From assembly GCA_029570205.1 (NCBI GenBank), contig JAKQSI010000032.1, forward strand, positions 1 to 52,584: a stretch of DNA of 52,584 nucleotides, read 5' to 3'. Below the pieces are notes generated by a model. The model was not told where the DNA came from, ran no database searches, and worked only from the letters and a program-made list of their open reading frames with translations. A program made the position numbers and the translations under genes. Within the stretch, counting starts at the first letter, position 1, and each line of letters begins with the position of its first letter. The DNA is from Candidatus Omnitrophota bacterium (lineage in GTDB: Bacteria; Hinthialibacterota; Hinthialibacteria; Hinthialibacterales; JAKPRU01). Positions 13,475 to 48,381 of this stretch are shown here, piece after piece.

Positions 13475-14944
13475 ATGAGACACCTCGGAATTCTCGTTTT
13501 GTCGGTGGTATTACTCACCGGATTGGCGACTCAATCCTTCGCACAGGTAATGGAAACCCCGGAAGAAGCCGGCATTACCCCCATCACAGGCGATATTCCG
13601 CTGCTCCGTGGCTATGGCGGTTCACACCATTTCGCGGCAGCCTGGCTCGCCATGCTTGGCGATGGAACTCCCCTCGTAGTCATGCCGAACCCAACCCTGG
13701 AAGAACAGCTGCAACACGTCGCAATCCTGAATGTGTTGGACCGTAAGGGCAACGTGGTCGCAGAACGCGCCGGATTCCAGGACGACAACGGCGTTCCCAT
13801 TATGGCCTACTTGGGCGGGGATCCGCGTGGTGTAGCCATTGACGCTCGCGGGAATCAATATGCCGTCGTCATGACAGCACAACCTTACCCCCCTGTCTAC
13901 ACAGGGGGCGGTGTGATCTCCGCTTTTGCCGGCGTAGGCACCGGCGGTGGCGACTCCGGCGTTCCCATCATCCAGGTCTTCAATGCCGATGGAACCAAGT
14001 CCTCCAATATCGTCAACATTATGGGAAAAGGTACTCTTTTTTCCGACAGCGGACAGGTTCAGGGACGTGCCTGCGTCTTCTTGAGCAATGGCAATGTCGC
14101 ATTGAACTTCTGGGATAAGAAAACTCCCACCGGCGGTGTGACCGGTGATCGTTGGCCGGGATATGAGGGAACCGGGCAGGTCGTCGGAGTCTCCGTGATT
14201 TCTCCCAACGGCAGCATTGTGGTTCCCCCGACACCGATCAGCACCCCTGTTGCGGGGGCCAATGCCCAAACCATGCGCGGCGTGGCGGCTGGCGAAGGTT
14301 GGTTCTGCTGCCGATTTCAGGATGCGGACGGGGTTGTGAAATACTCTATCTTCAATAACGCCGGTTCGAGAGTCCGCGATATCATCCCGGCGGACGTGAT
14401 CGACGCCGCGATGGAAGGCGGGTTGGGTACAGCCATCGCCGGTGGACGGGGTGACAGCGAGCTGATCTACGGGCAAGGTGAATTCTTATATGCAATCGGT
14501 AAAGCCAATGGGGCCACTTTTGTGATGAAATTCAACGCCTTGGCCGGAACCCTGGTCAAAATCACGGAGGCCTCGCCTGCTGGAAACCAGGGCGAGCGCA
14601 TGGACATCTGCGCCGATGCCAACGGAAATGTTTTCGCCATGTGGGGCGATGTTTCCGGCGGCGGGCTGGTTGCCCTCGGACGGCTCTTCGATGCCAATCT
14701 CGATCCTGTAACTCCGGAGTTCTCTGTCTTTGAGCATCAGGTCCTTTCCGGCAACACCGACACCTGGAAAGATGTCAGCTGCCGTATGGACACCGGGATT
14801 ATTGTCGCCTCTTGCCACACAACCGGTCTGCCGGACAACGAAGCGACACCCGGTCTCGGCAATCTCCCGCTCGAACACTGCGTGCGAATCCTGGCCAACC
14901 CGCTTGGTCCTTCTGCAGTGCAAGGCAACTGGGAACTGTACTGA
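13475..14944 (+). CDS. Secreted protein of unknown function with WELY C-terminus
   Basis: 489 residues. Sec signal peptide MRHLGILVLSVVLLTGLATQ-SFA-Q, then a beta-rich, glycine-rich body with repeats such as DPRGVAIDARGNQYAVV and MDICADANGNVFAMWGD, which suggest a propeller-like fold. It has few charged residues overall and no recognised catalytic motif. It ends in VQGNWELY at the stop codon, a tail shared in form with three other secreted proteins here. A perfect promoter and a very strong terminator bracket it, so it is probably a highly expressed single-gene unit. Confidence 0.85.
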   Translation: MRHLGILVLSVVLLTGLATQSFAQVMETPEEAGITPITGDIPLLRGYGGSHHFAAAWLAMLGDGTPLVVMPNPTLEEQLQHVAILNVLDRKGNVVAERAGFQDDNGVPIMAYLGGDPRGVAIDARGNQYAVVMTAQPYPPVYTGGGVISAFAGVGTGGGDSGVPIIQVFNADGTKSSNIVNIMGKGTLFSDSGQVQGRACVFLSNGNVALNFWDKKTPTGGVTGDRWPGYEGTGQVVGVSVISPNGSIVVPPTPISTPVAGANAQTMRGVAAGEGWFCCRFQDADGVVKYSIFNNAGSRVRDIIPADVIDAAMEGGLGTAIAGGRGDSELIYGQGEFLYAIGKANGATFVMKFNALAGTLVKITEASPAGNQGERMDICADANGNVFAMWGDVSGGGLVALGRLFDANLDPVTPEFSVFEHQVLSGNTDTWKDVSCRMDTGIIVASCHTTGLPDNEATPGLGNLPLEHCVRILANPLGPSAVQGNWELY

Positions 14945-15002
14945 GCAACACCGCTCTGCAGCGCTGAATAACACGGCGCAGTTTCGCTTTTCGTAATCCC
15001 CG

Positions 15003-15037
15003 GGGGAGGATGCCCACCCGGCATCCTCCCCTTTTTT
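15003..15037 (+). terminator. Strong intrinsic terminator
   Basis: GGGGAGGATGCC (15003-15014), loop CACCC, GGCATCCTCCCC (15020-15031), then six T. A perfect 12-bp stem 58 bases after the stop of the preceding gene. Confidence 0.95.
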
Positions 15038-15192
15038 CTTCTCTTCCTTCTTTCCCTCTTCTTTTTCGTGTCTTCTTCGTACTTTCATGATTCTCTCTAC
15101 CGCGTCTCTTTCTCTAAATCTAATTCTCCCCGGCGATTCCCCAAGTCGCGTATTTTTGCAGATAATAACCCCTGAAATCGAACGATATGGGA

Positions 15193-15222
15193 TTGACATG
15201 TCAACGGTACTTTCTCTAAAAT
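15193..15222 (+). promoter_or_regulatory. Sigma-70 promoter for the jelly-roll secreted protein
   Basis: TTGACA (15193-15198), 18-base spacer, TAAAAT (15217-15222). The -10 region CTCTAAAATCG is identical over 11 bases to that of the beta-helix gene at 48451-48461 on the other strand. Confidence 0.75.
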
Positions 15223-15286
15223 CGCCTGCGCCGTGGATTGTCACTCCCGCCCGGATCCGACAGGATTGAAGGAGGGAACTTTATCA

Positions 15287-15370
15287 ATGGCAATACCGGC
15301 ATATAGAAAGAACGCATATTTGTCACACGGAAAACAACCGTTCCAAGCAACGGTAAAGATTCAATCATGA
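15287..15370 (+). CDS. Possible 27-residue leader peptide
   Basis: ATG 15287 with AAGGAGG upstream (spacing 10), a better ribosome-binding site than that of the following gene. It encodes MAIPAYRKNAYLSHGKQPFQ and a few more residues, stopping at 15370, 13 bases before the next start. Basic and short, with no family recognised. It may couple translation to the downstream gene. Confidence 0.35.
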   Translation: MAIPAYRKNAYLSHGKQPFQATVKIQS

Positions 15371-15383
15371 AAGGTTATCCGCT

Positions 15384-17168
15384 ATGTTACAAACTTTTGC
15401 CTGGACAATTCTGATGCTTCTCATGGCCGTATCGGTGCAGTCTCAGGTGCTGTTGGACGAAAACTTCGATGCTGCCGCAGGAAATGATTTTGAGGATGTC
15501 ATCGACTTCAGCGGCAATCCGGTTCGGCCCGGTGAGATATTCACCATTGCGCCGACCGGCTGGACGGTTCGAACGGAATTACGCCCGGAGGAGGATACAT
15601 TCAGCGCCGCTTTCCCGTATCCCGGTTGGGTTTCACTTTATGACTATGAATGGGATACCCAGGGCGGCGAACGGGAGAATAGTCCGGAAGGCTTTTCGGG
15701 CGGGTTGATGATTGTTGATTCCGACCTGTTCGGCAGCTTGGGCGCGAAAAGTTGGCTTTACAGCCCGATTCTCAATCTGCCCAGCGGGAAAAATATGGTC
15801 GTCGTCCAATTTGACAACCATTACAGGCACAATGATAACCAAGTGGCCTCCCTTCAGGTATCCTGGGATGGCGGCCATGTGTTCCAGCCCGTGTTTCAAT
15901 GGGATGACAGCAACCGCAACGACAACCAGAGTTATATCGGTCGCGAGATTTTTGCCATACCCGTTCCGACAGGCGCAGAGACAGTGCAATGGGCTTTCGT
16001 TTTTGCGGGCGATAGCGATCAGGATGGGTATTACGATTTCGACTGGTATTGGGCCTTCGACAACGTTCTCATATCGGCCCAGGATATTTCCTCGCCGAAT
16101 ACCCCGACGCTGAAAGTCTCGTTGGTCAATCCGGGTCAATTCGATTCGGGCATTTTTCTGGAAGGCCCTGCTTTTGTGAGCGGCGCGGGCGCCACGCACG
16201 AAAAGACCCATTGGGAATTGGCGCTGGATTCTCTGTTTACGCAGATCATCTATTCTTCTGAAACCACGGAACACTTGACCGAGCTGGCGCTTAACGCAAA
16301 CGTGGCGCCGATCGGCAGAGTCATCTATGCCCGGGTGCGATATATCGACAACAACGGCGCAGCTTCCGAGTTTTCGAGCGCACAAACGTTCAATGTCTCC
16401 CCTCCCGCCGGAATGAGACCTCTCTTTGTGGAGGACTTCGAATCCACGAACGAGGGATCTCTGCCCAGCAACTGGCGACAGATCAGCTTCAACGGCGACA
16501 TGACCGGCGACCCCGTTATGGACATGGCGGCTTCCTGGGTTGTCGTAGAAGCGTCAACCCTGGCAACCTTTGGCAGTGAGCGCGTCAATCGCCCGGTGTT
16601 CGAGGGAAAGAGCGTCTATGCCAACTCCGATGGTTTCTCACCGTTCCAGGAAAGCCATCTCTTTACACCGCCCATCAACCTGAGCGGTGTAACAAATGTC
16701 TGGCTTACATTCTGGAGCAACTATGTTCAAAACCAGGACAACATCGGGGTATTGGAATACTCCATCAACGGCGGAAACCTCGATGAAAACCACATTGTCA
16801 CCGGAACTTGGCTGCCCATCGCGTACATGATGGATCACTTCGATATCGTGTTTGACACCGGCGGGAATCCTCTGGCCGAGCAGACTTTCACGGACACGAA
16901 TCTGGCGGATGGAACCGGCCACCCATACGCTTACTTTGTTTTCGCGCAGCCGTTCTCATCTCTGGATGCCTATCTCTCCCCGCGCATTGATGACGACAAG
17001 ACGGAGGGCAAGCGGTATGAACGCTGTCGCCTGAGCGCAGCGGACAACCAATCCAATGTGGTCATTCGCTGGATGAATATGGGAACCAACAGCTGGTTCT
17101 GGGGCGTGGATAATGTCATCATCTGGGGCGATGATGGAACCTCGGTCGCCGACTGGTCGCTTTACTGA
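15384..17168 (+). CDS. Large secreted protein with two jelly-roll (MAM/LamG-like) domains
   Basis: 594 residues. Signal peptide MLQTFAWTILMLLMAVSVQS-Q. Domain 1 (about 22-225) starts LLDENFD and ends YWAFDNVLISAQ. A fibronectin-III-like linker follows (about 235-335, TPTLKVSLVNPG ... YARVRYIDNNGAASEFS). Domain 2 (about 347-580) starts LFVEDFES and ends FWGVDNVIIWG. The opening -x-E-[DN]-F- and closing DN-[VI] strand are hallmarks of MAM/concanavalin-like beta-sandwiches that bind carbohydrate or mediate adhesion. It ends VADWSLY directly before the stop. No catalytic residues are evident; probably surface-attached or released. Confidence 0.85.
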   Translation: MLQTFAWTILMLLMAVSVQSQVLLDENFDAAAGNDFEDVIDFSGNPVRPGEIFTIAPTGWTVRTELRPEEDTFSAAFPYPGWVSLYDYEWDTQGGERENSPEGFSGGLMIVDSDLFGSLGAKSWLYSPILNLPSGKNMVVVQFDNHYRHNDNQVASLQVSWDGGHVFQPVFQWDDSNRNDNQSYIGREIFAIPVPTGAETVQWAFVFAGDSDQDGYYDFDWYWAFDNVLISAQDISSPNTPTLKVSLVNPGQFDSGIFLEGPAFVSGAGATHEKTHWELALDSLFTQIIYSSETTEHLTELALNANVAPIGRVIYARVRYIDNNGAASEFSSAQTFNVSPPAGMRPLFVEDFESTNEGSLPSNWRQISFNGDMTGDPVMDMAASWVVVEASTLATFGSERVNRPVFEGKSVYANSDGFSPFQESHLFTPPINLSGVTNVWLTFWSNYVQNQDNIGVLEYSINGGNLDENHIVTGTWLPIAYMMDHFDIVFDTGGNPLAEQTFTDTNLADGTGHPYAYFVFAQPFSSLDAYLSPRIDDDKTEGKRYERCRLSAADNQSNVVIRWMNMGTNSWFWGVDNVIIWGDDGTSVADWSLY

Positions 17169-17199
17169 ATCGTTCAACAATCGGAATCCATTTCGGTAG

Positions 17200-17238
17200 A
17201 TAAAAAGGGGGGTGGCTGTGCCCACCCTCCTTTTTCTT
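17200..17238 (+). terminator. Intrinsic terminator
   Basis: AAAAAGGGGGGTGG, a short loop, CCACCCTCCTTTTT, followed by CTTTTTG. Strong stem with T-run 32 bases after the stop of the jelly-roll protein. Confidence 0.85.
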
Positions 17239-17575
17239 TTTGTCGGCAGGCGCCGCAAATCTTTTCCGGTTGACCCCGTTTCTGCAGCATCGTCTTTTGT
17301 CCTTCTACTATGGGGGCACATGCTGCTATGTTTTTCACGCCGAACATGAAAGAACCCGACTTCCGGCTTTGGAAAGGAACTCATCGACCGGGCCGGTGAG
17401 GATAGCGACGACGGTATCGCGACACCTCCGTGCCGTATCTCCCGAGCATTGTGAGTATTCCCTTTGCCGTGTTGAGTTCCCAAGTCTATCATTCGTGGGA
17501 TTAAAGGATTGTCATGATAAAGAAAGAGAAGTATCATTGGGGGCGAGCGGCAAGTCGGAAGAGAAAGGCAGATCA
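17239..17575. other. Gap before the ceramidase-like gene
   Basis: About 340 bases with no convincing gene. An open frame continues upstream from 17576 through this stretch but has no signal peptide or start context until 17576. No clear promoter hexamer pair or repeat seen. Confidence 0.5.
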
Positions 17576-18949
17576 ATGGGACACAGGCAGCAAATACTTT
17601 CTGTTATGGTTTCAGTGATGATTATCTTCTGTACAACCCAGGTTGTCCACGCGCAATTTCGCGCGGGTGTTGCGTCGGCTGTAATCACACCGCAGACGAG
17701 TATCTGGATGTCCGGGTATGGCTCGAGAGACAAGCCATCCCAGAGTGTCGTTCAGGGTCTCTATACCAAGGCGCTGGCCATTGAGGACACGGGCGGAAAA
17801 CAGGTCGTGTTTCTGACCACGGACATCATAGGCTTGACGGCGGAACTGAGCGACAACGTTGCCGCACGAGTCTCGGAGAAAACCGGTTTGCCGCGTTCGG
17901 CGATCCTGTTGACCGCGTCCCACACACATACCGGGCCGGTTGTCGGTGAAAACCTCAGAAGCATGTACGATCTTCCGGCCGAAGAATGGGAGAAAATCCG
18001 TGGCTACACGCGGGACCTGGAAGACAAAATGGTAAACGTGATTCTGAGCGCGTTGGAACAGCTTGAACCGGCGAAGATGGAGCGCGGCAACGGCAGGGCC
18101 GGATTTGCCATGAATCGCCGACTCTTTGTGCCCGGCCAGGTGGTCATGCGCGACAATCCGATCGGGACGGTGGACCACGACGTCCCGGTTCTGAAGGTTA
18201 CAGACGCGCAGGGCGATGTGAAGGCGATTCTCTTCGGTTACGCCTGTCATAACACAACATTGAGCGATTACGGGATCTGCGGCGATTACGCCGGGTATGC
18301 ACAGGAATACCTGGAAAAACGACATCACGGCGCTGCGGCCCTTTTCTTCGCGGGCTGCGGCGCGGATGCCAATCCATCTCCCCGAACAGGACTGGAATAT
18401 GCCCGGCAACATGGAGAGGAACTCAGCCAGGCTGTCGAAACAGTACTGAATGAGCCGATGACGCCGGTAGACGGAACAATTTGCACGGCGTTTTCCAGTG
18501 TCTATCTTCCGCTTACCGCCGCTCCCACACGGGAAGAGCTACAGAAGCAGCTCGAAGATAAAAACCGTTTCATACGAAACCGCGCAAAGTATCTTCTGGA
18601 AACGCTGGAGCAGAACGGGAGCATTCCGGACCAGCATCCCTGCCCCGTGCAAGTGTGGGGAATTGGAAAGGATTTCCTGATCATCGCGCTCGGCGGTGAA
18701 GTGGTGTCGGATTATTCCCTGCTGTTCAAGTATCAGTTCGGCAAAGACCGCACATGGGTAGCCGCTTATGCCAATGACACGCCGGCCTACATTCCGACGA
18801 TTCGGCTAATTCGGGAAGGAGGCTATGAGGTTGAGGAATCCATGATCTACTATGGCTTGCACGGTCCCTGGAAACAGGAAATCGAGCCGATTCTCACAGA
18901 AGAAGTAAATCGGTTAGTGAAAGAGGTCCGGCAGGCGGGGCAGAAATAG
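17576..18949 (+). CDS. Neutral/alkaline ceramidase-like secreted hydrolase
   Basis: 457 residues. Signal peptide (about 1-29, cut near VHA-Q), then the N-terminal domain of neutral/alkaline non-lysosomal ceramidases: AGVASAVITPQ, ASHTHTGP (zinc-binding histidines) and ACHNTTL. The family hydrolyses N-acyl bonds of ceramide, but many bacterial members with only this domain have unknown substrates. The protein lacks the C-terminal Ig-like domain of true ceramidases (usually about 650-750 residues in total), so amidase action on another lipid or acyl-sugar is possible. Start at 17576 is supported by AAAGG and by the signal peptide. Confidence 0.85.
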   Translation: MGHRQQILSVMVSVMIIFCTTQVVHAQFRAGVASAVITPQTSIWMSGYGSRDKPSQSVVQGLYTKALAIEDTGGKQVVFLTTDIIGLTAELSDNVAARVSEKTGLPRSAILLTASHTHTGPVVGENLRSMYDLPAEEWEKIRGYTRDLEDKMVNVILSALEQLEPAKMERGNGRAGFAMNRRLFVPGQVVMRDNPIGTVDHDVPVLKVTDAQGDVKAILFGYACHNTTLSDYGICGDYAGYAQEYLEKRHHGAAALFFAGCGADANPSPRTGLEYARQHGEELSQAVETVLNEPMTPVDGTICTAFSSVYLPLTAAPTREELQKQLEDKNRFIRNRAKYLLETLEQNGSIPDQHPCPVQVWGIGKDFLIIALGGEVVSDYSLLFKYQFGKDRTWVAAYANDTPAYIPTIRLIREGGYEVEESMIYYGLHGPWKQEIEPILTEEVNRLVKEVRQAGQK

Positions 18950-19084
18950 ATAAATGGCAGGCAGGGACGCCCGGCCTGCCGGATGTTGAGTTTTTCCCTC
19001 ATTGGATATGGAGGTCTGCTCTGCATTTTCCGTCGCCCTGAACTCTCTCCCGGAGGCGAAAGGGTAAAAGCGGACTGGGCAAGA

Positions 19085-19306
19085 TCAGCTATTGTTCGCA
19101 CTCTGTTCCGCTCCTGCCTCAGAAAGAGTCCTTACACGCAGATCGACTTCATCAAGATACGCCGAGCATTTCTTAATCAGTTCCATGCCTTCCACAAACG
19201 AAGCCTCCATCTCGCGCAAAGTCATTTCGCCGGAATCGAAAGCGGCGACGATGCGCTCCAGCCGTTCCATTGCTTTTTCGAACTCGAAGGTCGTTTCCTC
19301 AGTCAT
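19085..19306 (-). CDS. xseB: Exodeoxyribonuclease VII small subunit
   Basis: 73 residues, all-helical: FEKAMERLERIVAAFDSGEMTLREMEASFVEGMELIKKC is the conserved XseB core. Several small subunits bind one XseA to form the single-strand exonuclease. The start follows GAGGATC and overlaps the xseA stop by 8 bases, so the two are translationally coupled. The acidic tail is normal. Confidence 0.93.
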   Translation of the reverse strand: MTEETTFEFEKAMERLERIVAAFDSGEMTLREMEASFVEGMELIKKCSAYLDEVDLRVRTLSEAGAEQSANNS

Positions 19307-20666
19307 TCTGATCCTCACAACATGATTTTTGCATCGGGTCCGACAGGATAGCCTGGGCGCCGAATTTCCCATCGCGCACGTGAATGCCAAGCCGGTCTCC
19401 GGGCCGTACCTGCCGTGGACTGAAAATGATTTCCCGAGTATCGGTTCGCTCACAGACCGCAAATCCGCGTCTCAGCGTGGCCTGCGGATGGAGGACCTCC
19501 AGACGTGCGGCGATGGTTTGCGTTCGGTGACGCATGTCCTGAAGCCGTCGCCGCGTTCCGTTCAACAGGCGATGCGTCCATCCCTGCACCGCCATTCGAT
19601 CCGTCTCCAGCCGGTTCCGCAACTCCCGGTTGATCCGGTCGGCGAAACCATCCAGACGCTGCCGGTATTGTTCCACCAATGCACGCGGATGATATCGCTG
19701 AAGCGAACGGTGGAGATTCTCCATTTGCACGGCAAGGCGATCCAGTTCCGTGCGGATATGCTTTCTCAGGTCGGACCGAAACTGCAAGAGGACCGCCCGG
19801 TGCCCTTTGAACAGATCGACCAGCAGCAGGGCCGCCGCGGAGGGAGTCGGCGCACGCATGTCCGCCACAAAGTCGGCAATGGTAAAATCCACTTCGTGCC
19901 CCACCGCACTGACCACCGGCGTCCTGCAGGACGCAATGGCCCTGGCCACAACTTCCTCGTTGAACGCCCAGAGATCTTCCAGTGATCCGCCGCCCCGCAT
20001 GGTAATCAACCAATCCAGCCCCATGCGATCGAGGTCCCGCAATGCCTGGGCAATCTCAGACGGGGCCTCCACCCCCTGAACCCGGCAAGATGCAATAACG
20101 ATTTCCAGCGGCAGATGATGTTCTCGTGCAATTTTTAAAAAATCCTGGATGGCTGCGCCAGTGGAAGACGTTGCGATTCCGATCCGCCTGGGGAAAGGGG
20201 GTAAGGGTTTCTTTCGGGCCTCGTCAAAAAGCCCTTCCTGTTGGAGACGTTGCTTCAGCTCCTCGAATCGTCGTTGCAGCAGCCCCAGACCGGCCAACTG
20301 AATCTCTTCCACAACCATTTGGTATTGACCGCGTGGAGGGTAAATCGTCAGACGCCCGGTACAGCGAACCGCCTGACCGTCCCCCAGGCTCAGGCGACCG
20401 AGACGACGCATGTCGCTCTTCCAGATCACACTTTCCAGAACGGCGTTTTCATCTTTCAGGCGGAAGTAAACATGACCGGCGCTGGAGACTTTCCAGCCGG
20501 AGATTTCCCCCTCCACGATCACGTGGGCATAGTCCTCTTCCAGCAGGAGTCGCAGTTCCTCTGTAAGTTGGGAAACCGTATATACGTGCGGGGTCCGATC
20601 GATCATCTCAAAGAGATCATGCGCTTCGCCGGAATCTTGTCGGGAGTTTTTTCTCATCAAATTCAC
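19299..20666 (-). CDS. xseA: Exodeoxyribonuclease VII large subunit
   Basis: 455 residues. N-terminal OB-fold (about 27-125: VSQLTEELRLLLEEDYAHVIVEGEISGWK ... GHVYFRLKDENAVLESVIWKSD), then the catalytic domain with RIGIATSSTGAAIQDFL, MRGGGSLEDLWAFNEE and PVVSAVGHEVDFTIADFVAD, then a long helical arm and a short C-terminal strand. Cleaves single-stranded DNA from either end in mismatch repair and damage processing. Operon with xseB; the ymdB-type gene lies 12 bases upstream. Confidence 0.95.
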   Translation of the reverse strand: MNLMRKNSRQDSGEAHDLFEMIDRTPHVYTVSQLTEELRLLLEEDYAHVIVEGEISGWKVSSAGHVYFRLKDENAVLESVIWKSDMRRLGRLSLGDGQAVRCTGRLTIYPPRGQYQMVVEEIQLAGLGLLQRRFEELKQRLQQEGLFDEARKKPLPPFPRRIGIATSSTGAAIQDFLKIAREHHLPLEIVIASCRVQGVEAPSEIAQALRDLDRMGLDWLITMRGGGSLEDLWAFNEEVVARAIASCRTPVVSAVGHEVDFTIADFVADMRAPTPSAAALLLVDLFKGHRAVLLQFRSDLRKHIRTELDRLAVQMENLHRSLQRYHPRALVEQYRQRLDGFADRINRELRNRLETDRMAVQGWTHRLLNGTRRRLQDMRHRTQTIAARLEVLHPQATLRRGFAVCERTDTREIIFSPRQVRPGDRLGIHVRDGKFGAQAILSDPMQKSCCEDQND

Positions 20667-20678
20667 CGCCCTGCCCGT

Positions 20679-21458: not shown

Positions 21459-21489
21459 AAGACGATTTGGCGTAACGAGTTTGAGATTT

Positions 21490-21710
21490 TCTCACCCCAA
21501 CCCTCTCCCAGAGGGAGAGAGAGAAGAGGGCGCTCTCCCAGACGAAGTGCAGGGGCAATTCATGAATTGCCCCACGTCCGTCATTCCGGCGAAGGCCGGG
21601 ATCCAACGGCCATGGGCGAGACGCCCATGCTACAGGTGTACCGGCGTAGGGGCGGACGGCTGTCCGCCCACAAATCACCGGCAAGATGCCGGCGCCACCC
21701 AAAGCCTGAT
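21490..21710. repeat. Array of six different short hairpin modules
   Basis: In order: CCCTCTCCCAGAGGGAGAG (about 21498); the perfect 22-bp palindrome GGGGCAATTCATGAATTGCCCC (21552-21573, written here complete at its axis); CATTCCGGCGAAGGCCGGGAT (21582-21602); CATGGGCGAGACGCCCATG (about 21612-21630); GGGCGGACGGCTGTCCGCCC (about 21651-21670); CCGGCAAGATGCCGG (21678-21692). Several of these modules recur alone elsewhere in the window. They fill the whole gap between rny and the ymdB-type gene. Confidence 0.85.
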
Positions 21711-21713
21711 GGC

Positions 21714-35063: not shown

Positions 35064-35195
35064 GTCAACCGGGAACCAGGTGAAATGAAAGAGATGCGTA
35101 CTCTTGAGGAAAAATTGAACCCACAAGGGGTTGAACTTTCTCAGGTTTTGAGTAATGATTCCGCCGATTCTATCGTCAGAAACAGGGGGAACACC

Positions 35196-36764
35196 GTGAG
35201 ACTGCGAAAATCGTGGCTGTACAAAGCAGGACTGATCGCGATAGCAGCGTGTCTGCTATCTCCCGGCGGAGTGTGGGCGGATCGAATAGAAGATCTCGAG
35301 TCTCGAATCAAGGCTTTAGAGGCACAGCTGCAGGAACTGAAAGCCGCGCTGGAACAGCAAAAACAAGCCGCACCCCCCGCACCTCCCGTGCCACCGGCGC
35401 CTCCCGAAGGAGGAATGCAGCTGGGCGGTATCTCCAAGACCCTGAAAATCGGTGGCGACCTCCGCTTCCGTCCTACCTATGCCGAAAACCTCTGGGACTT
35501 CGATGATAACGGCTGGGACATTCCCGGATTGCCGGACGACACACGGGAGTATTATCGGTTCCGGCCGAGAATCTTTTTTGACTGGCAGATGAATGATGAT
35601 ATGCATGCCTTTGTCCGACTCCTTAAAGAGTGGTACTACGGCCAGGACAACGAGATGCCGGGCTACGATGTCGAGGCAAAAGATGTTGCCTTCGACATCG
35701 CTTTTGTGGACTGGGATAACGTTTTCAATATGGGAATCAACACCCGAATCGGTCGACAGGAGCTCATCTACGGCGAGGGATTCGTGATTATGGAGGGGAC
35801 TCCGTTCGATGGTTCGCAGACATTCAGCTTTGATGCGATCAAGTTGTCCTATCCGTTCGAAAACGGAAATATCGATGTGTTCGCCGCAAAAACACATGAA
35901 AACGATATCCAATATGCGGATGACGAAGATTTGTACGGGGTCTATACCAAATACAATGTCAACGATAACTGGGGAATCGAGCCGTATATCCTCTATCGGA
36001 ATAAGAACGATGAACCCGACTATACATCAAACCGAATTGATCTTTCGCCAAAAGAGCAGACATTGTTGTTGGGCGCCCGGACCACCTTCCAGGCGGACCT
36101 TTTCGGAGGAACAACCTTCAGTATGGCTGCGGAAGGTGGAAAAGAGTGGGGCGAAATCGATTGGACGAACTATGATGCCCGAATCGCAAACTTGCCCGCA
36201 AATCCCAATGTGACAGCGCACCCGTTCCAGCATGGCGACAGCCAGGGGGAGGAAGATCGGGATGCGTGGGGTGGCTTGATCTGGGGCCAACTCAAGCAGA
36301 ATAACTGGATGTGGACCCCGTCGCTTAAGGCCGGCATTTCCTACATGAGCGGCGATGACCCCGACACCAGCGACTATGAAGGCTGGGATGATTTCTATTC
36401 CGAATCCGCGAAATACAGTGAACTGCTTCTGTACACAATGTATGATGGCTTTAAATTTCGTACAGGAGAGAATGACCCCACTCTGGGAACCTGGACAAAT
36501 ATGATTCTCCCCGAATTGGCGATCAACTTCAGCCCGACCGAACGCCTGGGGCAAATGCTGCGGTATACCTATTTCATGGCGGACCAGAAAAATGGTCCCA
36601 ATGACGGCGATGAAATGGGACAGAGCCTCCAGTGGTTGACCACATACAAGTTCAATGAATTCCTAGATGGTCACTTCCTGGTGGAATACTTTACTCCGGG
36701 CGATTACTTTGTCAATGACGATGATGCCTGGTTCATCCGCTTGCAGCTGATGTATAAGTTCTAA
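35196..36764 (+). CDS. Outer-membrane porin with coiled-coil neck
   Basis: About 522 residues from a GTG at 35196, chosen because AGGGGGA lies just upstream and a good signal peptide follows (RLRKSWLYKAGLIAIAACLL ... VWA). An in-frame ATG at 35085 would place 37 hydrophilic residues before it. Order: coiled coil RIEDLESRIKALEAQLQELKAALEQQKQ, Pro/Ala linker PPAPPVPPAPP, then an acidic, aromatic-rich beta-barrel of about 420 residues ending LQLMYKF, the terminal Phe expected for BAM insertion. The coiled coil suggests a trimer. It probably takes up solutes; it follows the ior-paaK operon by 132 bases. Confidence 0.82.
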   Translation: MRLRKSWLYKAGLIAIAACLLSPGGVWADRIEDLESRIKALEAQLQELKAALEQQKQAAPPAPPVPPAPPEGGMQLGGISKTLKIGGDLRFRPTYAENLWDFDDNGWDIPGLPDDTREYYRFRPRIFFDWQMNDDMHAFVRLLKEWYYGQDNEMPGYDVEAKDVAFDIAFVDWDNVFNMGINTRIGRQELIYGEGFVIMEGTPFDGSQTFSFDAIKLSYPFENGNIDVFAAKTHENDIQYADDEDLYGVYTKYNVNDNWGIEPYILYRNKNDEPDYTSNRIDLSPKEQTLLLGARTTFQADLFGGTTFSMAAEGGKEWGEIDWTNYDARIANLPANPNVTAHPFQHGDSQGEEDRDAWGGLIWGQLKQNNWMWTPSLKAGISYMSGDDPDTSDYEGWDDFYSESAKYSELLLYTMYDGFKFRTGENDPTLGTWTNMILPELAINFSPTERLGQMLRYTYFMADQKNGPNDGDEMGQSLQWLTTYKFNEFLDGHFLVEYFTPGDYFVNDDDAWFIRLQLMYKF

Positions 36765-41228: not shown

Positions 41229-41287
41229 TGCATACACCTCACAATAATAGAATACGATTCGTTCTCGGACCGTAACGAGGCAAGAAT

Positions 41288-41614
41288 ATGGCCGATCCGT
41301 TGACCGTGGAAGACCTGGAGGACCTTCGGAATCGCGGGTGCGTTCTTGTCATCCGCCGGGAATTGGCGCAAACTCCGGAAATCTTTGAAAGAAATCTTCT
41401 TCTGCGTGGCCTGGCCATTTTGGGCGCTCTGTACACCCCGGAAAGCGAACAACTTTCGCAACAACTGTTCCGTGCCCGCATCTATAACAAACGGATCCCA
41501 TCCCAGGTAACGTTGTCGGAGGAAGATGAGGAAATGATTTTGTTCCCCATCGAGGATCTTGGCGAGCAGCGTTATGTGATCGCTCTGGCCCCCGTTGAGG
41601 AAGGGGCGGAATAA
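41288..41614 (+). CDS. Hypothetical 108-residue protein
   Basis: Divergent from the UDP-sugar dehydrogenase with only 59 bases between starts; GAGG about 12 bases upstream of the ATG. The sequence is acidic, mixed alpha/beta (RNRGCVLVIRRELAQTPEIFERNLLLRGLAILGALYTPES), without signal peptide or membrane segment. No family recognised. The next gene starts 13 bases later, so they are likely co-transcribed. Confidence 0.6.
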   Translation: MADPLTVEDLEDLRNRGCVLVIRRELAQTPEIFERNLLLRGLAILGALYTPESEQLSQQLFRARIYNKRIPSQVTLSEEDEEMILFPIEDLGEQRYVIALAPVEEGAE

Positions 41615-41627
41615 ACAAGGATTCTTA

Positions 41628-42884
41628 ATGGACCAACTTTTTGACATGGAAATTGCGGCCAACCGCCCGATCCGAAGAATGGGGATCGGGTTCCTCTTAT
41701 TTGCCTGCCTGCTCGGGTATGTTCTTCGCTTCGCATTTCTGGTTGAAGGTTCACAACAGTTCAGCGCGGAGCTGGGGGATCAGCAGCGGTATCTCGCAGA
41801 GGCCCGGAATCTCCTGGAACACGGAACCTTCGCCATTTCCATCGACCAGGGTCCCACGGCGTTTGATGGTCCGGGCTACGCGGTCTTTCTGGTTCCGTTT
41901 CTCCGGTTGTTTCCAGAGGTATATGTCGGTCCGGCAATGGCGGGGCAGGCCGTGGTTTCCCTGCTGACTGCCTGGCTGCTCGCTCAACTCACCTGGCGGA
42001 TTACGCAAAGTATCTTGGCGGCACGCATCGCGCTTCTCTGGTGGTGTATCTATCCGTTCTCTATTTTTTACAGCGCGTTTCTGCTTTCCGAGACTCTATA
42101 CACGGCTGTCCTGTGCGCCTCCGTATTCTGCGCGTATGGATTTATGCAGAACCTGACATCCCGGTCTGCCATCGTATTCGGGATCGTGCTGGGCCTGACA
42201 TCCCTGGTTCGTCCTACCGTGAATTTCTGTATTCTGTTTCTATTCCTGGCGGTACTTATTTCGTGCTGGGATCGTCGAAAAGAGGCCATCCGGGGGCTGG
42301 TCATGGCCGGAATCGCGCTGGCCGTTGTTCTGATTCCCTGGACCGCAAGAAATTACGCGGTTTTCGGGCGGATTTTGCCGGGCAGCACACAAGCCGGACG
42401 AATGCTGTTCCTGGCAAACAATCCCGACAATAAGACCGGATATGTGGTGATCCCGCGCGATGCCGTTCCTCCCTCACCGGAATTCGGCGAAACCGAACTG
42501 CAATACAATGAGCGCCTGGGCGCGCTGGCAAAAGAATTCATCCGTGAAAATCCGGGACAGTTTGTAAAGCTGTGCCTCCTACGGCTTATCGTTTTCTGGT
42601 GGCCGATGCCCGTGTATGAAAAGTTTTCCTCCTTCCCGCTGGTTCTGTTGAGCCTGCTCACTCTTCTTCCCCTTTTCGGAGCCGCTTTGGGAGGGGTTGT
42701 GATGTTAAAAAAGAAATGGAAATTATTGTTGCCGATTCTCTCGGTAGTTCTCTCTACCTGGCTGCTCCATCTTGTGTTCGGAGTGTCGATGCGGTATCGT
42801 TTCCCCATCGAATCCCTCCTGATTCCCCCCGCCGCCTATTGCCTGTCGGATTGCATCCACAGATATCGTTCCGGCAGAATGTAG
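41628..42884 (+). CDS. Membrane glycosyltransferase, GT39/ArnT-like (GT-C fold)
   Basis: 418 residues with about ten hydrophobic helices. The first luminal loop carries GDQQRYLAEARNLLEHGTF ... FDGPGYAVFLVPFL, the D-x-x-x-Y / GPGY pattern of dolichyl/undecaprenyl-phosphate-mannose-type transferases, and SMRYRFPIESLLIP closes the last helices as in this family. It would transfer a sugar from a lipid-phosphate donor on the periplasmic side to lipid A, protein or another acceptor. ATG 41628 follows CAAGG. Confidence 0.85.
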   Translation: MDQLFDMEIAANRPIRRMGIGFLLFACLLGYVLRFAFLVEGSQQFSAELGDQQRYLAEARNLLEHGTFAISIDQGPTAFDGPGYAVFLVPFLRLFPEVYVGPAMAGQAVVSLLTAWLLAQLTWRITQSILAARIALLWWCIYPFSIFYSAFLLSETLYTAVLCASVFCAYGFMQNLTSRSAIVFGIVLGLTSLVRPTVNFCILFLFLAVLISCWDRRKEAIRGLVMAGIALAVVLIPWTARNYAVFGRILPGSTQAGRMLFLANNPDNKTGYVVIPRDAVPPSPEFGETELQYNERLGALAKEFIRENPGQFVKLCLLRLIVFWWPMPVYEKFSSFPLVLLSLLTLLPLFGAALGGVVMLKKKWKLLLPILSVVLSTWLLHLVFGVSMRYRFPIESLLIPPAAYCLSDCIHRYRSGRM

Positions 42885-43013
42885 CCGCCCCCCCCCGGAA
42901 ATCCCCCACCCTTTCCCAGATTGGGACATTTCGAGTCACAGATTGCGCAACACGCTCGACAAAGAGCGGGGCATCTTTGAGTCAATCTCTATTGCTCGAC
43001 CGGGCTTCCGTCC

Positions 43014-43031
43014 AAAAAGGCGCATCGCGCC
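43014..43031 (-). terminator. Candidate terminator of the DUF2442 gene
   Basis: On the minus strand AGGCGC-GAT-GCGCCT followed by TTTT. Six-base-pair stem about 65 bases after the stop. Confidence 0.5.
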
Positions 43032-43093
43032 TGCCTTCATCGGCCCAAAAATGTACTGCATGTCTAAATGGAGGTGTCCGGTGTAACGGCGCG

Positions 43094-43324
43094 TTATGTC
43101 AATATCCGTGCTTTTTCGTACAGGAACTTCGGGGCGATATCGGCCCCGTTGGGCCAGGTCAGCGTGCGAAATTCGGGATGTACCGTGAACCGCTGGAAAA
43201 ATGCCTGATTTTTCAGCGGTTCGAAAATCTCCCCGTGCAACTCGTCTTGAAAATCCACATCGCCCTCGGTTCCGTCGGTAAAACGAACGTGAATGATAAA
43301 ATCCTGCAAGTAATGCGCTTCCAA
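43094..43324 (-). CDS. DUF2442 family protein
   Basis: 76 residues: VRFTDGTEGDVDFQDELHGEIFEPLKNQAFFQRFTVHPEFRTLTWPNGADIAPKFLYEKA is the DUF2442 pattern (DG--G-VD----L-G--FEPL ... WPNGAD-AP-FLY). Members often follow a DUF4160 gene in what looks like a toxin-antitoxin-like pair. None is recognisable upstream here, and the start would be a TTG at 43324 with a poor ribosome-binding site, so the 5' context may be degenerate. Flanked by empty DNA on both sides (42885-43093 and 43325-43578). Confidence 0.7.
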   Translation of the reverse strand: MEAHYLQDFIIHVRFTDGTEGDVDFQDELHGEIFEPLKNQAFFQRFTVHPEFRTLTWPNGADIAPKFLYEKARILT

Positions 43325-43578
43325 GTTCGCCGGAACTTATCATCAAATAGGCGCCTGGCACTATCATCGACCGCAACCCGGAAGGGCCGGCACAAATCTT
43401 TTCACCTTTCGAATCGGAATATACACCTTCATCCACCCATTCGTCAATCAGGTTTCACGGGCTTTGCCGTGCCTGAGAAACCGAGGCAACCGCCGGGCAG
43501 CCCGATTGTCGGCTTCCAGCTGACATCCCGTATGCGGGAAGGTAGGATAAGAAAGATTGATCTGTTCAGGCTGAGCCG

Positions 43579-44820
43579 ATGTATTCCAAGACCTTGTATT
43601 TCCTGACATTCGTTCTCCTTGTGGTGATCGGCCTGTTGCTTCTGTGGGCAGTCCGCGTGCACGAGGAAGCTATTCGGCAGATTCCACGGATCCTGGCGCG
43701 TGAGTTCCCCGCGCTGGTCGCTCGTGAAATCCCACCTGTGCTGGATGGGCCGGGGAACACACTCGATTCCCTGGCCATCGAGATTCAGCAGGATTATCCG
43801 TTTGTCCAGGAAATTGTCGTATTCAAGTTCCGCGAGGGGCATGGTCCCATCGCCGTCTATCCGCCGTTCTTCTCCCAAACTCACCCGGATTTTCTTGAAA
43901 AACACCTGGAAGAGTATGAGGCCGTACCGCTTCGCTTCATGTCGATGCCCGTCGGAACCGTCTACTTTCGCCTGGACCAGACACGTCGACGCCTGTTCAA
44001 TACCGCCCTCATCGGTGTCCTCGCGCTGCTCGTGGTCTATTCCGCCGTCGGAGTAAGAATACTCCAGAAAACCTCTGCGCAAGTAATCAGTAAAACCGTC
44101 GCCCTGGAGGAAAAACAGCGACAGCTGCTCCACTTGGAACGATTATCCCTCGTGGGCCAGGTCACAGCCGGTCTCCTGCATGATCTCAAAAAGCCTCTCC
44201 TGAACATCCGCGATGAAGCGGCCGGTCTCCAGGACACCCAGGCCCGAAATGCCATTCTGGCCGAGGTGGACCTCTTTCTCCACATGCTGCGTGGCCTTCA
44301 GCTCGAGGGATTCCTGAATCGTTCCGAAAGCAAGGCAGAGTTTCTCGATCTCGGAGAGGTAATCGAACGATCGATTCGACTGGTCAGCTACGCCCGGAAC
44401 GCCGTGGAAGTCCAGCGGTCCATACCGGAAAGTCTCCCCTTCCTGCTCGGACAGTTCCATCAACTTGTTCAGGTCTTTTCCAACATCCTGTTGAATGCAT
44501 TCGAGGCGCTCGATGGGAAAGGAACCGTCCGAATCTCTGCCCGACAGGGGGTATTTCTGCACCAGGGAGTGCAAACTGCCATGGTTGAGATCGTGATCGC
44601 CGATAATGGCCCCGGTATTCGCCAGGAACTGCTGGACCGGATATTCGAGCCGTTTTTCTCTCCCGGCAAAGGCAGCACCGGACTGGGTTTGTACACCTCA
44701 AAGTCCATTATTGATGAAATGGGTGGAACAATTCACGCCGAGAGCGAAATCGGCAAGGGAACACTCTTTATCGTGCGCCTGCCCATCGAGGAGCAAGATC
44801 TGCAGGCGGAGGGCAAATAG
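43579..44820 (+). CDS. Membrane sensor histidine kinase
   Basis: 413 residues. Two membrane helices (about 8-25 and 141-160) bracket a roughly 115-residue periplasmic sensor. A coiled-coil stretch (EEKQRQLLHLERLSLVGQVTAGLL) leads to the phospho-acceptor His201 in HDLKKPLLNI, then N-box NILLNAFEAL, DNGPGI, FFSPGKGSTGLGLYTS (F and G2 boxes). HDLKKP is an uncommon H-box. No receiver or response-regulator gene adjoins it; the nearest is the CheY-like gene at 49903. It belongs to the NtrB/ZraS-like class by layout. Confidence 0.9.
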   Translation: MYSKTLYFLTFVLLVVIGLLLLWAVRVHEEAIRQIPRILAREFPALVAREIPPVLDGPGNTLDSLAIEIQQDYPFVQEIVVFKFREGHGPIAVYPPFFSQTHPDFLEKHLEEYEAVPLRFMSMPVGTVYFRLDQTRRRLFNTALIGVLALLVVYSAVGVRILQKTSAQVISKTVALEEKQRQLLHLERLSLVGQVTAGLLHDLKKPLLNIRDEAAGLQDTQARNAILAEVDLFLHMLRGLQLEGFLNRSESKAEFLDLGEVIERSIRLVSYARNAVEVQRSIPESLPFLLGQFHQLVQVFSNILLNAFEALDGKGTVRISARQGVFLHQGVQTAMVEIVIADNGPGIRQELLDRIFEPFFSPGKGSTGLGLYTSKSIIDEMGGTIHAESEIGKGTLFIVRLPIEEQDLQAEGK

Positions 44821-45098
44821 ATATTGTGGCATCAACTCCCTCTCCCACCGGGGCCAGGCGCGGGTTGAATTTACGTAGCTGTCCGGTAGACCCCGTGCTG
44901 ATGTGGGGGGGGTGGGGAAGGGAGAGAATGTCGGAAGGCGAGGCGGACCTGCTCCCCGAAAACTGGACCGGTGAAAATGTCAGGATCTCCTGAGAACCAC
45001 CAGCCGCCTTGCCAAGGAAGAGCAGATCGGTCGCCCATCCTCCCAGGGGGAAAGGAGAGGGTTTCGGAGAACCAACGTCTCTCCATTCGGTCGTCAGT
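44821..45098. other. Repeat-like gap
   Basis: Starts with CTCCCTCTCCCACCGGGGCCAGG, related to the CCCTCTCCC module near 21498, followed by G-rich tract TGGGGGGGGTGGGGAAGGGAG and a stretch with its own partial palindromes. No gene seen. Confidence 0.5.
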
Positions 45099-46478
45099 TC
45101 AATTGAGAAACGACTTAATGGCCACCGCACGCCGTGGATGTCGCATTTTGCGAAGGGCACGAACCTCCAGTTGTCGAACCCGTTCGCGGGTCACACCAAA
45201 ACGCTCGGCGATTTCATCCAGAGTCAGAGTTTTGGTTCCGCCGATTCCATACCGAAGTCGCAGAATAACCTCTTCACGTTCCGGCAGGGTTTTCAGCAAA
45301 TCATTCAAGCGATCATAAAGCATGGTCGACTCGACATTTTCCCAAGGCATGACCGCATTTTCATCGGGGATCATGTGGCCGACCACACTTTCACCGTCAT
45401 CTCCCAGGGGAGTTTCCAGTGACACGTGGCTTTGCATAACCTTTTTCAATGTCTGAATCTGATCCGGCCTGATTTCGATCGTTTCCGCCAATTCGTCATC
45501 AAACGGCTCACGCTGGAGTTCCTGACGCAGTTTGTCGTTGGCAACTCGCATTTTGGTCAGAATGTCGACCACATTCGCCGGAAGACGAACGGGACGAACA
45601 TGGGAGGTAATGGCTCGTCGGATGGTCTGACGAATCCACCAGACTGCATACGTGCTGAACTTGCAGCCTTTCCGGTGATCGAAACGATCGACCGCTTTCA
45701 TAAGACCAAGGTTCCCTTCCTGGATCAGATCCAACATATCCAATCCATGATTGCGGTACCGTCTTGCAACAGAAATCACCAGGCGAAGATTCCCCTGGAC
45801 CATTTTTTGTCGGGCGTCGTCCAACTCTACCCACCCATCGCGAATGGCCTTTTTCGCTTTTGGTAACAAGGGATCGCCAGTCTTTCCTCTCAAATTGAGA
45901 ATATCCCGACCGATTTCCTCAAGGCGGCAGGGATCGAAGCGCAAATCCGAGAGGAATTCCGAGACCTCGTCGGCCTTACGGTTTCGGGTGTTCTCAGAAC
46001 GAATGGAAGATTTGCCGAGCTTATCAAGGGTTCCCTGAACAAGGCGCAAACGTTTGAGAATCTCTTCATTCACCGCATTGCCCCCCTCGGGACCCGAAAA
46101 AACGATCTTGTCGGTTGAAATCTCGCCACTTAAAGCGTTCCCGATCTCATGGGCCAGAGCCTTGCTTCCCTCGCGGGTCATGGCGATACCCCGGAGGATG
46201 GCTTTTCGGCCACGCTCGATCTGCTTGGACAACTCGATTTCTTCGAACTTGCCGAGAAGCGAATGCTGTCCCATTTCGTGAAGGTATGTCTGTATCGCTG
46301 AACCGGAAGCGGGATCATTCAATGAACTATGCTGATCACCGTCCGGGCCATTGTCCAATTCGTCTTCGGTGATATCGAATACCCGGCTTTCCAACTCGAA
46401 ATGGTCGGATTCCAGATCAAAACGACCCTCCGAATGGCGGCTTTTCTTACGATGTTGTCTCTCGTCTGTGACTTTCAT
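45099..46478 (-). CDS. Sigma-70 family RNA polymerase sigma factor (RpoD/RpoS type)
   Basis: 459 residues. Hydrophilic N-terminus (no region 1.1), region 1.2 (SAIQTYLHEMGQHSLLGKFEEIELSKQIE), a non-conserved insert of about 150 residues, region 2 (QKMVQGNLRLVISVARRYRNHGLDMLDLIQEGNLGLMKAVDRFDHRKGCKFSTYAVWWIRQTIRRAI), region 3 and region 4.2 (TLDEIAERFGVTRERVRQLEVRALRKMRHP). Region 2.4 reads RQTIRR where E. coli RpoD has RQAITR: Gln437 is kept, Thr440 is Arg, and the ADQ of primary factors is replaced by TSH. It could be the housekeeping factor of a divergent phylum or a group-2 factor. TAAGGAGG ribosome-binding site. Confidence 0.9.
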   Translation of the reverse strand: MKVTDERQHRKKSRHSEGRFDLESDHFELESRVFDITEDELDNGPDGDQHSSLNDPASGSAIQTYLHEMGQHSLLGKFEEIELSKQIERGRKAILRGIAMTREGSKALAHEIGNALSGEISTDKIVFSGPEGGNAVNEEILKRLRLVQGTLDKLGKSSIRSENTRNRKADEVSEFLSDLRFDPCRLEEIGRDILNLRGKTGDPLLPKAKKAIRDGWVELDDARQKMVQGNLRLVISVARRYRNHGLDMLDLIQEGNLGLMKAVDRFDHRKGCKFSTYAVWWIRQTIRRAITSHVRPVRLPANVVDILTKMRVANDKLRQELQREPFDDELAETIEIRPDQIQTLKKVMQSHVSLETPLGDDGESVVGHMIPDENAVMPWENVESTMLYDRLNDLLKTLPEREEVILRLRYGIGGTKTLTLDEIAERFGVTRERVRQLEVRALRKMRHPRRAVAIKSFLN

Positions 46479-46520
46479 TTCTTCCTCCTTAACCCAACGT
46501 CCGTCAATACGTTCCCGGTA

Positions 46521-46549
46521 ACGATATCACAAATAGTTTACCTTGTCAA
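46521..46549 (-). promoter_or_regulatory. Candidate promoter of the sigma-factor gene
   Basis: Minus-strand TTGACA (46549-46544), 17-base spacer, TATCGT (46526-46521), about 35 bases before the start codon. Confidence 0.55.
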
Positions 46550-46625
46550 TAATATTTATCTGTTTCATCCATCTATTTTTCTTGTTTGTCAAATTGGCTC
46601 AATATTGAAACGTTGTATTCCTATT

Positions 46626-46772
46626 TTGACACAATTCCGAGCCATTTCTAAAGAAGTTTGCGAACGCGAAACTTTACTATCTTTATTGAGCGACAGCATA
46701 ACTTTATGTTTTTTTGCCGGTTGCGTGAGAACAGGGATTATTCTCATTTTTAGAATCGGCAACCTTTTATTC
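46626..46772 (+). ncRNA. Possible small RNA locus
   Basis: TTGACA (46626-46631), 17-base spacer, TAAAGA (46649-46654). Downstream a nested structure: TTGCCG (46713-46718) pairs with CGGCAA (46756-46761), enclosing TGAGAA (46725-46730) paired with TTCTCA (46740-46745), then CCTTTTATT. No open reading frame with a ribosome-binding site follows. Confidence 0.2.
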
Positions 46773-46870
46773 CATACTTACACAAGTTCTATGCCATATT
46801 GTGGGATAAGTTGGGAGGGGCGTTGAAGCAGGAAGAGATGGAACGAGCATCCCCAAAAGCGTTCAGAACG

Positions 46871-46903
46871 AAAACGGGCCTGGCAGAGGCTGCCAGGCCC
46901 GTT
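46871..46903 (-). terminator. Strong intrinsic terminator of the beta-helix gene
   Basis: AACGGGCCTGGCAG / CTGCCAGGCCCGTT, perfect 14-bp stem with a 3-base loop (46873-46903), followed on the minus strand by TT. Twenty bases after the stop codon. Confidence 0.9.
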
Positions 46904-46923
46904 GGAAAGACTGTCCGAGATTC

Positions 46924-48381
46924 TCAATAGATGGACCATTCGATAACGGGGGTCTGCGGCGATCCCTGGAAACCGATAGGGGTTCCGCCCTCCCCGGCAG
47001 TCCTGACCGGGGAATCCTCCGCCAATTTAAACCCATCCCGCGTGAATGTTTCAACATCCACACTCGGATTCACGAATTTCGGGTCTACCTGTTGATTGTT
47101 TTCACTGATTACATTTGTAAACGGTTCCGAATCGACAAAAACATTGCAGTATCTTGCAGTCAAGGCATTGGCATCAAAATTGGCCGGATCGTTGATACTG
47201 CCGTTGTACAGTCCGCGGCGGCCGACGACATTCGAATTGGTTATGGTCAAGACCATCGGTTCGCCGGTGCCGACATCAACCCGGACCTCATAAGGGGAGG
47301 CAGCTGTCAGAGCATTGTGGTAGAATTCGCAGTGATCGACGGTGACGATTGTCTCAATTCCGCTGTCGTGAAGCCACAATCCTTCTTCTTGGTTGCCGGC
47401 TACAATACATCCCGTCAGACTGACTTGCCCATTTTCAATCTCCATGCCTTGTTCCTTGCCGCCGACAAAGGATGAGTTCTCGATAATCCCGATAACGGGG
47501 CGTGTACCGAGCGTTCCATCCACAGACACGTGGAGACCGTCAGCCGTGGATGCCAGCACTGTGCAATTCCGAACGACATTGTAACCGCCACCCAGTTGAA
47601 TACCGCCGTCACAGTTGATGATCGTATTGTTCTCGATCAGGTTGCCGGGTCCCTGGGCGGCCATCGGACCGATACTCTCCGGGTAGGCTCCGTTAACGAC
47701 TTGAATGCCGGTCTCCTCGCAATTCCGAACAGTGCAACCGCGAATGGTAACCGAGGGATCCGTGGGAGCATTTGGTTGGGCTTTGGAAATGAGGGGACCA
47801 AAATTTGTTTCTTCAATCAGGCAGTCCTCAATAAGAACATTCACGGGCGCAGTCTGCATCCCGATCACTAAGATGCTTTGGTTTTGTGCCGGATAGTCGA
47901 TCCCCATGCCGCCGGCCCCACGGACTGTGCAGTTACGGACAGTGATGTTGCTGCAATCGATCAAGGCGACAATGGAACTGGCTCCCGCCATGTTTACGGA
48001 AGTTGTTTGGTTCTCGAAAGTGATTCCTTCAATGAGGACCCCCTGACAGCCGAAAAACACGGCTCCCAGATAGTCCGTCCCCGGAAGTCCCAACGGGTCA
48101 AGTCTCGCCATACCGTTTGCCGCACGAATCGTTGGGGTCTGTCCTTCGGCGGCCCGCAACGTGAACGAGGCGGCAAGGCCCGCCACTGCGCCCGCAGTGA
48201 GATCTTCCTCGTACGTGGCGCTGTCGCCGATGACAATTGTGTCGCCGTTGCGGATGGCTCCCAGCGCCATGGCCACACTGGGCACATCGCCCGTACCGTC
48301 CCTTTTCACCGTAATTGTGGCTGCCGTCGCCGTTGAAACAAACATGGACATGGCAAGAAGAACAACGACACAAGTTCTCAT
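46924..48381 (-). CDS. Secreted right-handed beta-helix protein with WSIY C-terminus
   Basis: 485 residues. Signal peptide MRTCVVVLLAMSMFVSTATA-A, then ITVKRDGTGDVPSVAMALGAIRNGDTIVI, the usual entry of pectate-lyase-like parallel beta-helices. Many rungs follow: LIDCSNITVRNCTVRGAGGMGI, VTIRGCTVRNCEETGIQVV, NLIENNTIINCDGGIQLGG, VSLTGCIVAGNQEEGLWLHDSG. Cysteine/asparagine ladders fit a stacked helix. No catalytic Asp/Lys cluster can be assigned. The last domain (DPKFVNP ... GFKLAEDSPVRTAG) is the common end of such proteins. It finishes VIEWSIY at the stop. Own promoter and strong terminator. Confidence 0.88.
   Translation of the reverse strand: MRTCVVVLLAMSMFVSTATAATITVKRDGTGDVPSVAMALGAIRNGDTIVIGDSATYEEDLTAGAVAGLAASFTLRAAEGQTPTIRAANGMARLDPLGLPGTDYLGAVFFGCQGVLIEGITFENQTTSVNMAGASSIVALIDCSNITVRNCTVRGAGGMGIDYPAQNQSILVIGMQTAPVNVLIEDCLIEETNFGPLISKAQPNAPTDPSVTIRGCTVRNCEETGIQVVNGAYPESIGPMAAQGPGNLIENNTIINCDGGIQLGGGYNVVRNCTVLASTADGLHVSVDGTLGTRPVIGIIENSSFVGGKEQGMEIENGQVSLTGCIVAGNQEEGLWLHDSGIETIVTVDHCEFYHNALTAASPYEVRVDVGTGEPMVLTITNSNVVGRRGLYNGSINDPANFDANALTARYCNVFVDSEPFTNVISENNQQVDPKFVNPSVDVETFTRDGFKLAEDSPVRTAGEGGTPIGFQGSPQTPVIEWSIY

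Follow-up and report, generated by a model that had tools for sequence, protein, structure and literature searches.

Why four exported proteins of different build, encoded on a single contig, should end in nearly the same few residues is the question raised by a 52,584-nt stretch of DNA from a Candidatus Omnitrophota bacterium (GTDB Hinthialibacterota; GenBank assembly GCA_029570205.1, contig JAKQSI010000032.1), which was analysed as a whole and is called the window below. A first, sequence-only reading had noted a shared aromatic C-terminal tail on these proteins and had proposed an undescribed surface-sorting or secretion signal. The analysis confirmed that the tail is a real, recurrent and strictly terminal tag that is essentially limited to exported proteins of unrelated fold and that matches none of the known sorting tags tested, and we infer that it directs proteins to the surface or the outside. 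Our preferred interpretation, to which we assign a probability of about 0.68, sees in the tail a sorting tag of nine residues at the C-terminus of Sec-exported proteins, which serves their delivery across the outer membrane.

The four tagged proteins of the window

The window corresponds to contig C16 of a 4.39 Mb genome in 131 contigs (G000). Translation placed the tail directly at the stop codon of all four proteins, as had been claimed; two of the genes (8027–9436 and 46924–48381) lie on the minus strand, which the sequence-only reading had not given. The four genes and one untagged internal control are:

8027–9436, minus strand: BNR/propeller protein, exported, ending VGVDLWWIH (the His-ending form of the tag); tag codons 8030–8056
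13475–14944, plus strand: exported protein of 489 aa from a class-specific family, ending SAVQGNWELY; tag codons 14912–14941
15384–17168, plus strand: jelly-roll (reelin-type / choice-of-anchor J) exported protein, ending TSVADWSLY; tag codons 17139–17165
46924–48381, minus strand: right-handed beta-helix exported protein, ending TPVIEWSIY; tag codons 46927–46953
35085–36764, plus strand: untagged control, an Alginate_exp-type outer-membrane barrel with an ordinary ending of the beta-barrel assembly machinery (BAM) type, FIRLQLMYKF

None of the remaining called window genes ends in the tail, in line with the earlier observation. The different folds read from the sequence stood for the beta-helix protein (Pfam Beta_helix, 5.8e-23), the jelly roll and the 8027–9436 protein (BNR_4 propeller by Pfam); the 13475–14944 protein, previously described as propeller-like, has no Pfam match. 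In the tail of the latter, V sits four residues before W, not three, and five more proteins of the same genome align to it with weak identity (18–31%), all of them tag-ending. A homologue of the jelly-roll protein from another genus (37% identical) retains the tag as TKVDEWSIY, and His endings recur within the window's genus, e.g. VTSWELH and VSGWMLH. Signal peptides, which had been assigned to all four proteins, are plain in three; the exception is the 8027–9436 protein, the listed start of which is doubtful because its signal-like stretch (NWLVVLIPLLVSPAWA) comes after a repeat-rich N-terminus, and translation probably begins further downstream than the listed ATG. A tandem NPQS[PA]IRN repeat (9301–9346, minus strand) precedes this stretch.

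An AlphaFold model of the window beta-helix protein showed a beta-helix followed by a low-confidence C-terminal stretch (mean predicted local distance difference test score, pLDDT, 56.7; alignment of three sequences), which gives weak support to an unfolded tail on this protein. In SURF_12, the relative of this protein (L145:9986–11581) carries a single in-frame stop behind ...IPGVD and terminates in NVARWEIYQ, which extends the tag by one residue.

The tag is essentially confined to exported proteins

Genes were called from codon usage, with a simple program, on seven large contig stretches of the window's genome (about 0.79 Mb) and on the window, and likewise on further stretches of the same genome and of nine relatives (the class samples). 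Exported proteins were recognised by a heuristic signal-peptide test, which was used in a strict version for the pooled count. Because the stretches were chosen partly for their tail-like DNA content, the tagged share is inflated, which does not apply to the association with signal peptides. Among the 591 genes of the seven stretches (window excluded), the tail was present on 7 of 135 genes with a predicted signal peptide and on 2 of 456 non-exported genes, namely a polytopic membrane protein (a chance match) and a gene cut by a contig end, whose start is unknown and which is the only credible tagged case among the 456. When the strict test was applied to all class samples, the tail was found on 48 of 387 exported and 7 of 880 cytoplasmic proteins, and on none of the 152 polytopic membrane proteins or the 50 pilin-like ones; its enrichment on exported proteins relative to all others (48/387 vs 7/1082, Fisher p = 5e-22) is as the sequence-only reading had anticipated. 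Three of the seven "cytoplasmic" cases (15384–17168, G007C22 and G010C38) have, by eye, clear N-terminal signal peptides that escaped the heuristic; another of the seven is the window gene 8027–9436.

Position by position, Trp occupied -4 in 67 of 528 exported proteins (12.7%), compared with roughly 1–2% at most other positions. Throughout the sampled exported protein (190,756 residues), the motif occurred 49 times at the terminus and 11 times internally. Trp at -4 was also raised among the genes called non-exported in all sampled genomes (51/1281), in part through tags whose signal peptides were missed and in part perhaps because the ribosome-binding site of a following gene was translated as codons.

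Anatomy and modularity of the tag

The consensus of the tag is [TVSA]-x-V-x-[DNE]-W-[STEA]-[LVI]-Y-stop, nine residues that stand behind a short Pro/Gly-rich linker. In a logo of 58 class proteins, in which W(-4), L/V/I/M/F(-2) and Y/H(-1) were fixed by the selection of the sequences, V(-7) was present in 51 and Y(-1) in 55 proteins, T/V/S(-9) reached 1.9 bits and D/N/S/E(-5) 1.4 bits, and position -3 was [S/T/E/A]. Conservation was confined to the last nine residues, with a weak Pro/Gly preference from -13 to -10 and no clear conservation before -10. In the 58 proteins the stop codon follows directly behind the motif, and they show no transmembrane helix, basic cluster or invariant Cys. Variants carry F or Y in place of W (VSNFMLY, IENYMIY), a terminal His (in the window's genus), a terminal Phe, or one added Glu, Gln or Arg (WDLYE, WSLYQ, WTLYR).

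The bodies that carry the tag are diverse: 80 tagged proteins from the sampled relatives fell into 53 clusters (BLASTP E < 1e-5), the aligned representatives of which had a mean column identity of 7%, and Pfam and NCBIfam scans of the tagged proteins revealed no common tail model. Domains found on tagged bodies include beta-helix, LamG, Golvesin_C, PPC, WD40, GH57/CBM53, GH18 and polysaccharide deacetylase; exported proteins without the tag in the same genome match thioredoxin, TPR, 3-keto-disaccharide hydrolase and heparinase families, an outer-membrane efflux protein family and others. The tag is modular, since two adjacent paralogues on contig C90 of the window's genome align up to ...TFAGS, after which one adds QGPAPVNVDHWSVY and the other ends MGGGQ.

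The tag occurs in two lineages

Genomic DNA of 386 genomes was scanned with the pattern V-x-[D/N/E/K]-W-x-[I/L/V/M]-Y-stop, with the reversed pattern as control. The 14 genomes of the window's class gave 143 matches against 5 reversed, and three genomes of a further family (f17) gave 39 against 0; the remaining 369 genomes were at background, none with more than 4 matches. One of the f17 genomes (G025) is Ca. Sumerlaea chitinovorans BY40 (PMC8092238), and the assignment of f17 to the Sumerlaeota is considered safe. Among 40 Sumerlaeota genomes, the 29 from f17 and families f266–f272 contained 184 matches vs 9 reversed, with at least one match in 27 of the 29, and the tagged genes were again mostly those of exported proteins with varied folds. 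The other 11 (G387–G397, families f259–f265) had zero tag matches in the DNA scan. Families f259–f265 and most other Sumerlaeota thus form a natural contrast of tag-negative and tag-positive genomes within one phylum, so that a receptor can be sought by genome comparison. A shorter DNA pattern (TGGNNNNTNTAYTRR, W-x-phi-Y-stop read regardless of frame) occurred 51 times in the window's own genome and its reversed control 58 times; this bare pattern shows no excess, and information comes only from the longer pattern and from in-frame gene ends.

The Sumerlaeota also provide the best functional hint to delivery outside the cell, albeit an indirect one. In three of their genomes, three large GH18 chitinases end VSSWELY (BY40), VAQWELY and VRGWELY; a fourth large GH18 chitinase ends in the variant VNLSHLELY, and shorter GH18 proteins (380–607 aa) of the same genomes are without the tag. 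Because their substrate chitin is an insoluble extracellular polymer, these enzymes are expected outside the periplasm.

Comparison with known sorting signals

The PEP-CTERM/exosortase, GlyGly-CTERM/rhombosortase, MYXO-CTERM/myxosortase and LPXTG/sortase systems likewise place a single short signature at the C-terminus of many unrelated Sec-exported proteins, dozens per genome, with scattered genes and in restricted lineages. Their tags, however, are tripartite and consist of a motif, a transmembrane helix and a basic cluster (PMC11980579, PMC1569441), whereas the tagged proteins described here end at the motif, with no helix, basic cluster or invariant Cys. The logo does not show the architecture of GlyGly-CTERM or MYXO-CTERM either, in which a Gly-rich or invariant-Cys motif is followed by a helix and an Arg cluster (PMC11980579). 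The C-terminal domain (CTD) of type IX secretion system (T9SS) substrates is also a C-terminal signal on Sec-exported proteins for crossing the outer membrane, but it is a folded domain of about 70–100 residues common to the substrates, in contrast to a nine-residue tail. The BAM beta-signal shares with the tag an aromatic C-terminal residue and a strand-like character; it differs in its spacing and in being borne by beta-barrels.

Three assignments were tried and rejected. For T9SS substrates, a search of the 14 class genomes for the translocon SprA/Sov (TIGR04189) yielded short repeat-like hits and nothing over cut-off, and the tagged proteins have no clear conservation before -10 and no shared tail model. 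For PEP-CTERM/exosortase substrates, the stop codon directly after the motif does not fit, and exosortase (PF09721) was detected in 4 of the 14 class genomes (G009, G010, G012 and G013) and is absent from G000–G008 and G011, which include the window's whole order. For IPTL-CTERM (TIGR04174), none of 17 tag-bearing genomes had a match over cut-off to the whole model, which includes a transmembrane helix. The sequence-only reading had already set the tail apart from both the T9SS CTD and the BAM beta-signal, and rightly so, given the missing SprA in the window's class, the different spacing and the lack of barrels among the families listed for the tagged bodies. The tag therefore behaves like the C-terminal sorting tags and yet belongs to none of these families, since their transmembrane helix and basic cluster, or their folded domain, were tested for and absent. 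A search of the open-access literature found no description of it.

A proposed sorting tag for delivery across the outer membrane

Sorting to the outside is suggested by the extracellular-type bodies, by the tagged large chitinases and by the contrast with untagged exported proteins of periplasmic type. A tagged protein would enter the periplasm via Sec and have its signal peptide removed. A dedicated receptor, in the periplasm or the outer membrane, would then bind the extended tag by recognising Trp(-4), Val(-7), the aliphatic side chain at -2 and the final Tyr, and would pass its cargo on to an exporter in the outer membrane, by which the protein would be released from the cell or displayed on its outside. 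The likeliest exporter would be the type II secretion system (T2SS), although this route is a guess to which we give clearly less than even odds. If the sorting interpretation is true, the tag represents a C-terminal sorting signal of new build, nine residues without membrane anchor, lipid or folded domain. It offers a concrete signature for predicting outside-bound proteins of two uncultured phyla, including the large chitinases of Ca. Sumerlaea. Tentatively, the tag could mark the substrates of an undescribed outer-membrane system for secretion or surface anchoring in Hinthialibacterota-like bacteria and Sumerlaeota, a system whose own receptor would recognise a free, extended nine-residue C-terminus.

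In the search for a co-occurring transporter or protease, which the sequence-only reading had suggested, the T2SS marker GspK (PF21687) was present in 17 of 17 tag-bearing genomes tested. The window's genome contains a complete T2SS operon (C59:65865–78106, L065) with E, F, G, H, I, J, K, L/PilM, M, a gene for a GspC-like protein of 194 aa, and D. Two additional GspK-like loci on C38 and C1 indicate several T2SS-like systems in this genome. A tag upstream of T2SS has a precedent, given that T2SS exports MYXO-CTERM and GlyGly-CTERM proteins across the outer membrane, those tags being tripartite (PMC11980579).

Several observations speak against delivery by this route or against sorting as such. 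T2SS is widespread, so its co-occurrence with the tag is weak evidence, and T2SS substrates are, to our knowledge, not known to share a linear signal. No PDZ domain was found in the 194-aa GspC-like protein of the window's genome, which has no Pfam match. The tagged genes are scattered and not linked to one machine: 3 of 27 GspK loci lie within 15 kb of a tagged gene vs 2.8 expected, i.e. no linkage above chance. The search found no dedicated receptor or transporter for the tag, and the low-confidence tail in the AlphaFold model derives from three sequences only. When homologues common to both phyla were screened as receptor candidates, the exported ones proved for the most part to be pilins, components of T2SS and housekeeping proteins.

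Alternative explanations

The tail might instead be a docking or retention peptide with no role in secretion, fixing exported proteins to a scaffold such as an outer-membrane receptor, an S-layer or a polysaccharide-bound protein. The surface-type bodies, the lack of a transmembrane or lipid anchor and the short, exposed form of the tag would suit such a peptide; as the tagged large chitinases and peptidases could equally be released and no scaffold gene was found adjoining the tagged genes, we regard this explanation as unlikely, if still worth serious consideration.

That the tag is what remains of an IPTL-CTERM or PEP-CTERM signal, or is related to one, shorn of helix and basic cluster and still read by a related machine, appears distinctly improbable. 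The start of IPTL-CTERM (IPTLSEWGL) and the W-x-L of PEP-CTERM do resemble the order V/L-x-[DE]-W-x-[LI], but TIGR04174 is unmatched in the 17 genomes, exosortase occurs in only 4 of 14 class genomes, and the tagged proteins lack both the helix and the Arg cluster.

Since free C-termini of hydrophobic or aromatic character are bound by PDZ proteases, the tail could serve to report misfolded or stalled exported proteins to a quality-control protease of the periplasm (DegS, DegP or Prc type), which would recognise it. Known DegS ligands, however, are read at -1 and -3 (YxF), whereas the tag is conserved at -1, -2, -4 and -7 and is borne by particular proteins only (7 of 135 exported), making a protease site very improbable.

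We see scarcely any room for the tail being the last strand of one inherited C-terminal domain common to all tagged proteins. Some of them are paralogous over their whole length, but the 53 body clusters are unrelated, with 7% mean column identity and conservation gone before -10, and the untagged C90 paralogue stops where the tag would start.

A BAM beta-signal would account for the aromatic last residue and the strand-like alternation, yet we give it almost no credence: no barrel is among the families listed for tagged bodies, the recognised barrel of the window ends FIRLQLMYKF, and an every-second-residue signal would not be spaced as Y(-1), L(-2), W(-4), V(-7). Chance or a composition artefact, with which the missing excess of TGGNNNNTNTAYTRR would agree, can be dismissed in view of the surplus of the longer pattern in the class (143 vs 5) and in the Sumerlaeota (184 vs 9), the background level of the other genomes, and in-frame tags almost all on exported proteins.

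Neighbours of the tagged genes

Pilin-like genes were the only recurrent neighbours of tagged genes, filling 10 of 120 neighbour slots vs 38 of 662 for untagged exported genes, a linkage above the cytoplasmic background and not clearly above that of other exported genes. Such genes (FTLIELLIVVAIIGILAAIAVPNF) are frequent in the window's genome, with 27 among ~820 genes (e.g. 4972–5607 in the window), and adjoin exported genes more often than cytoplasmic ones.

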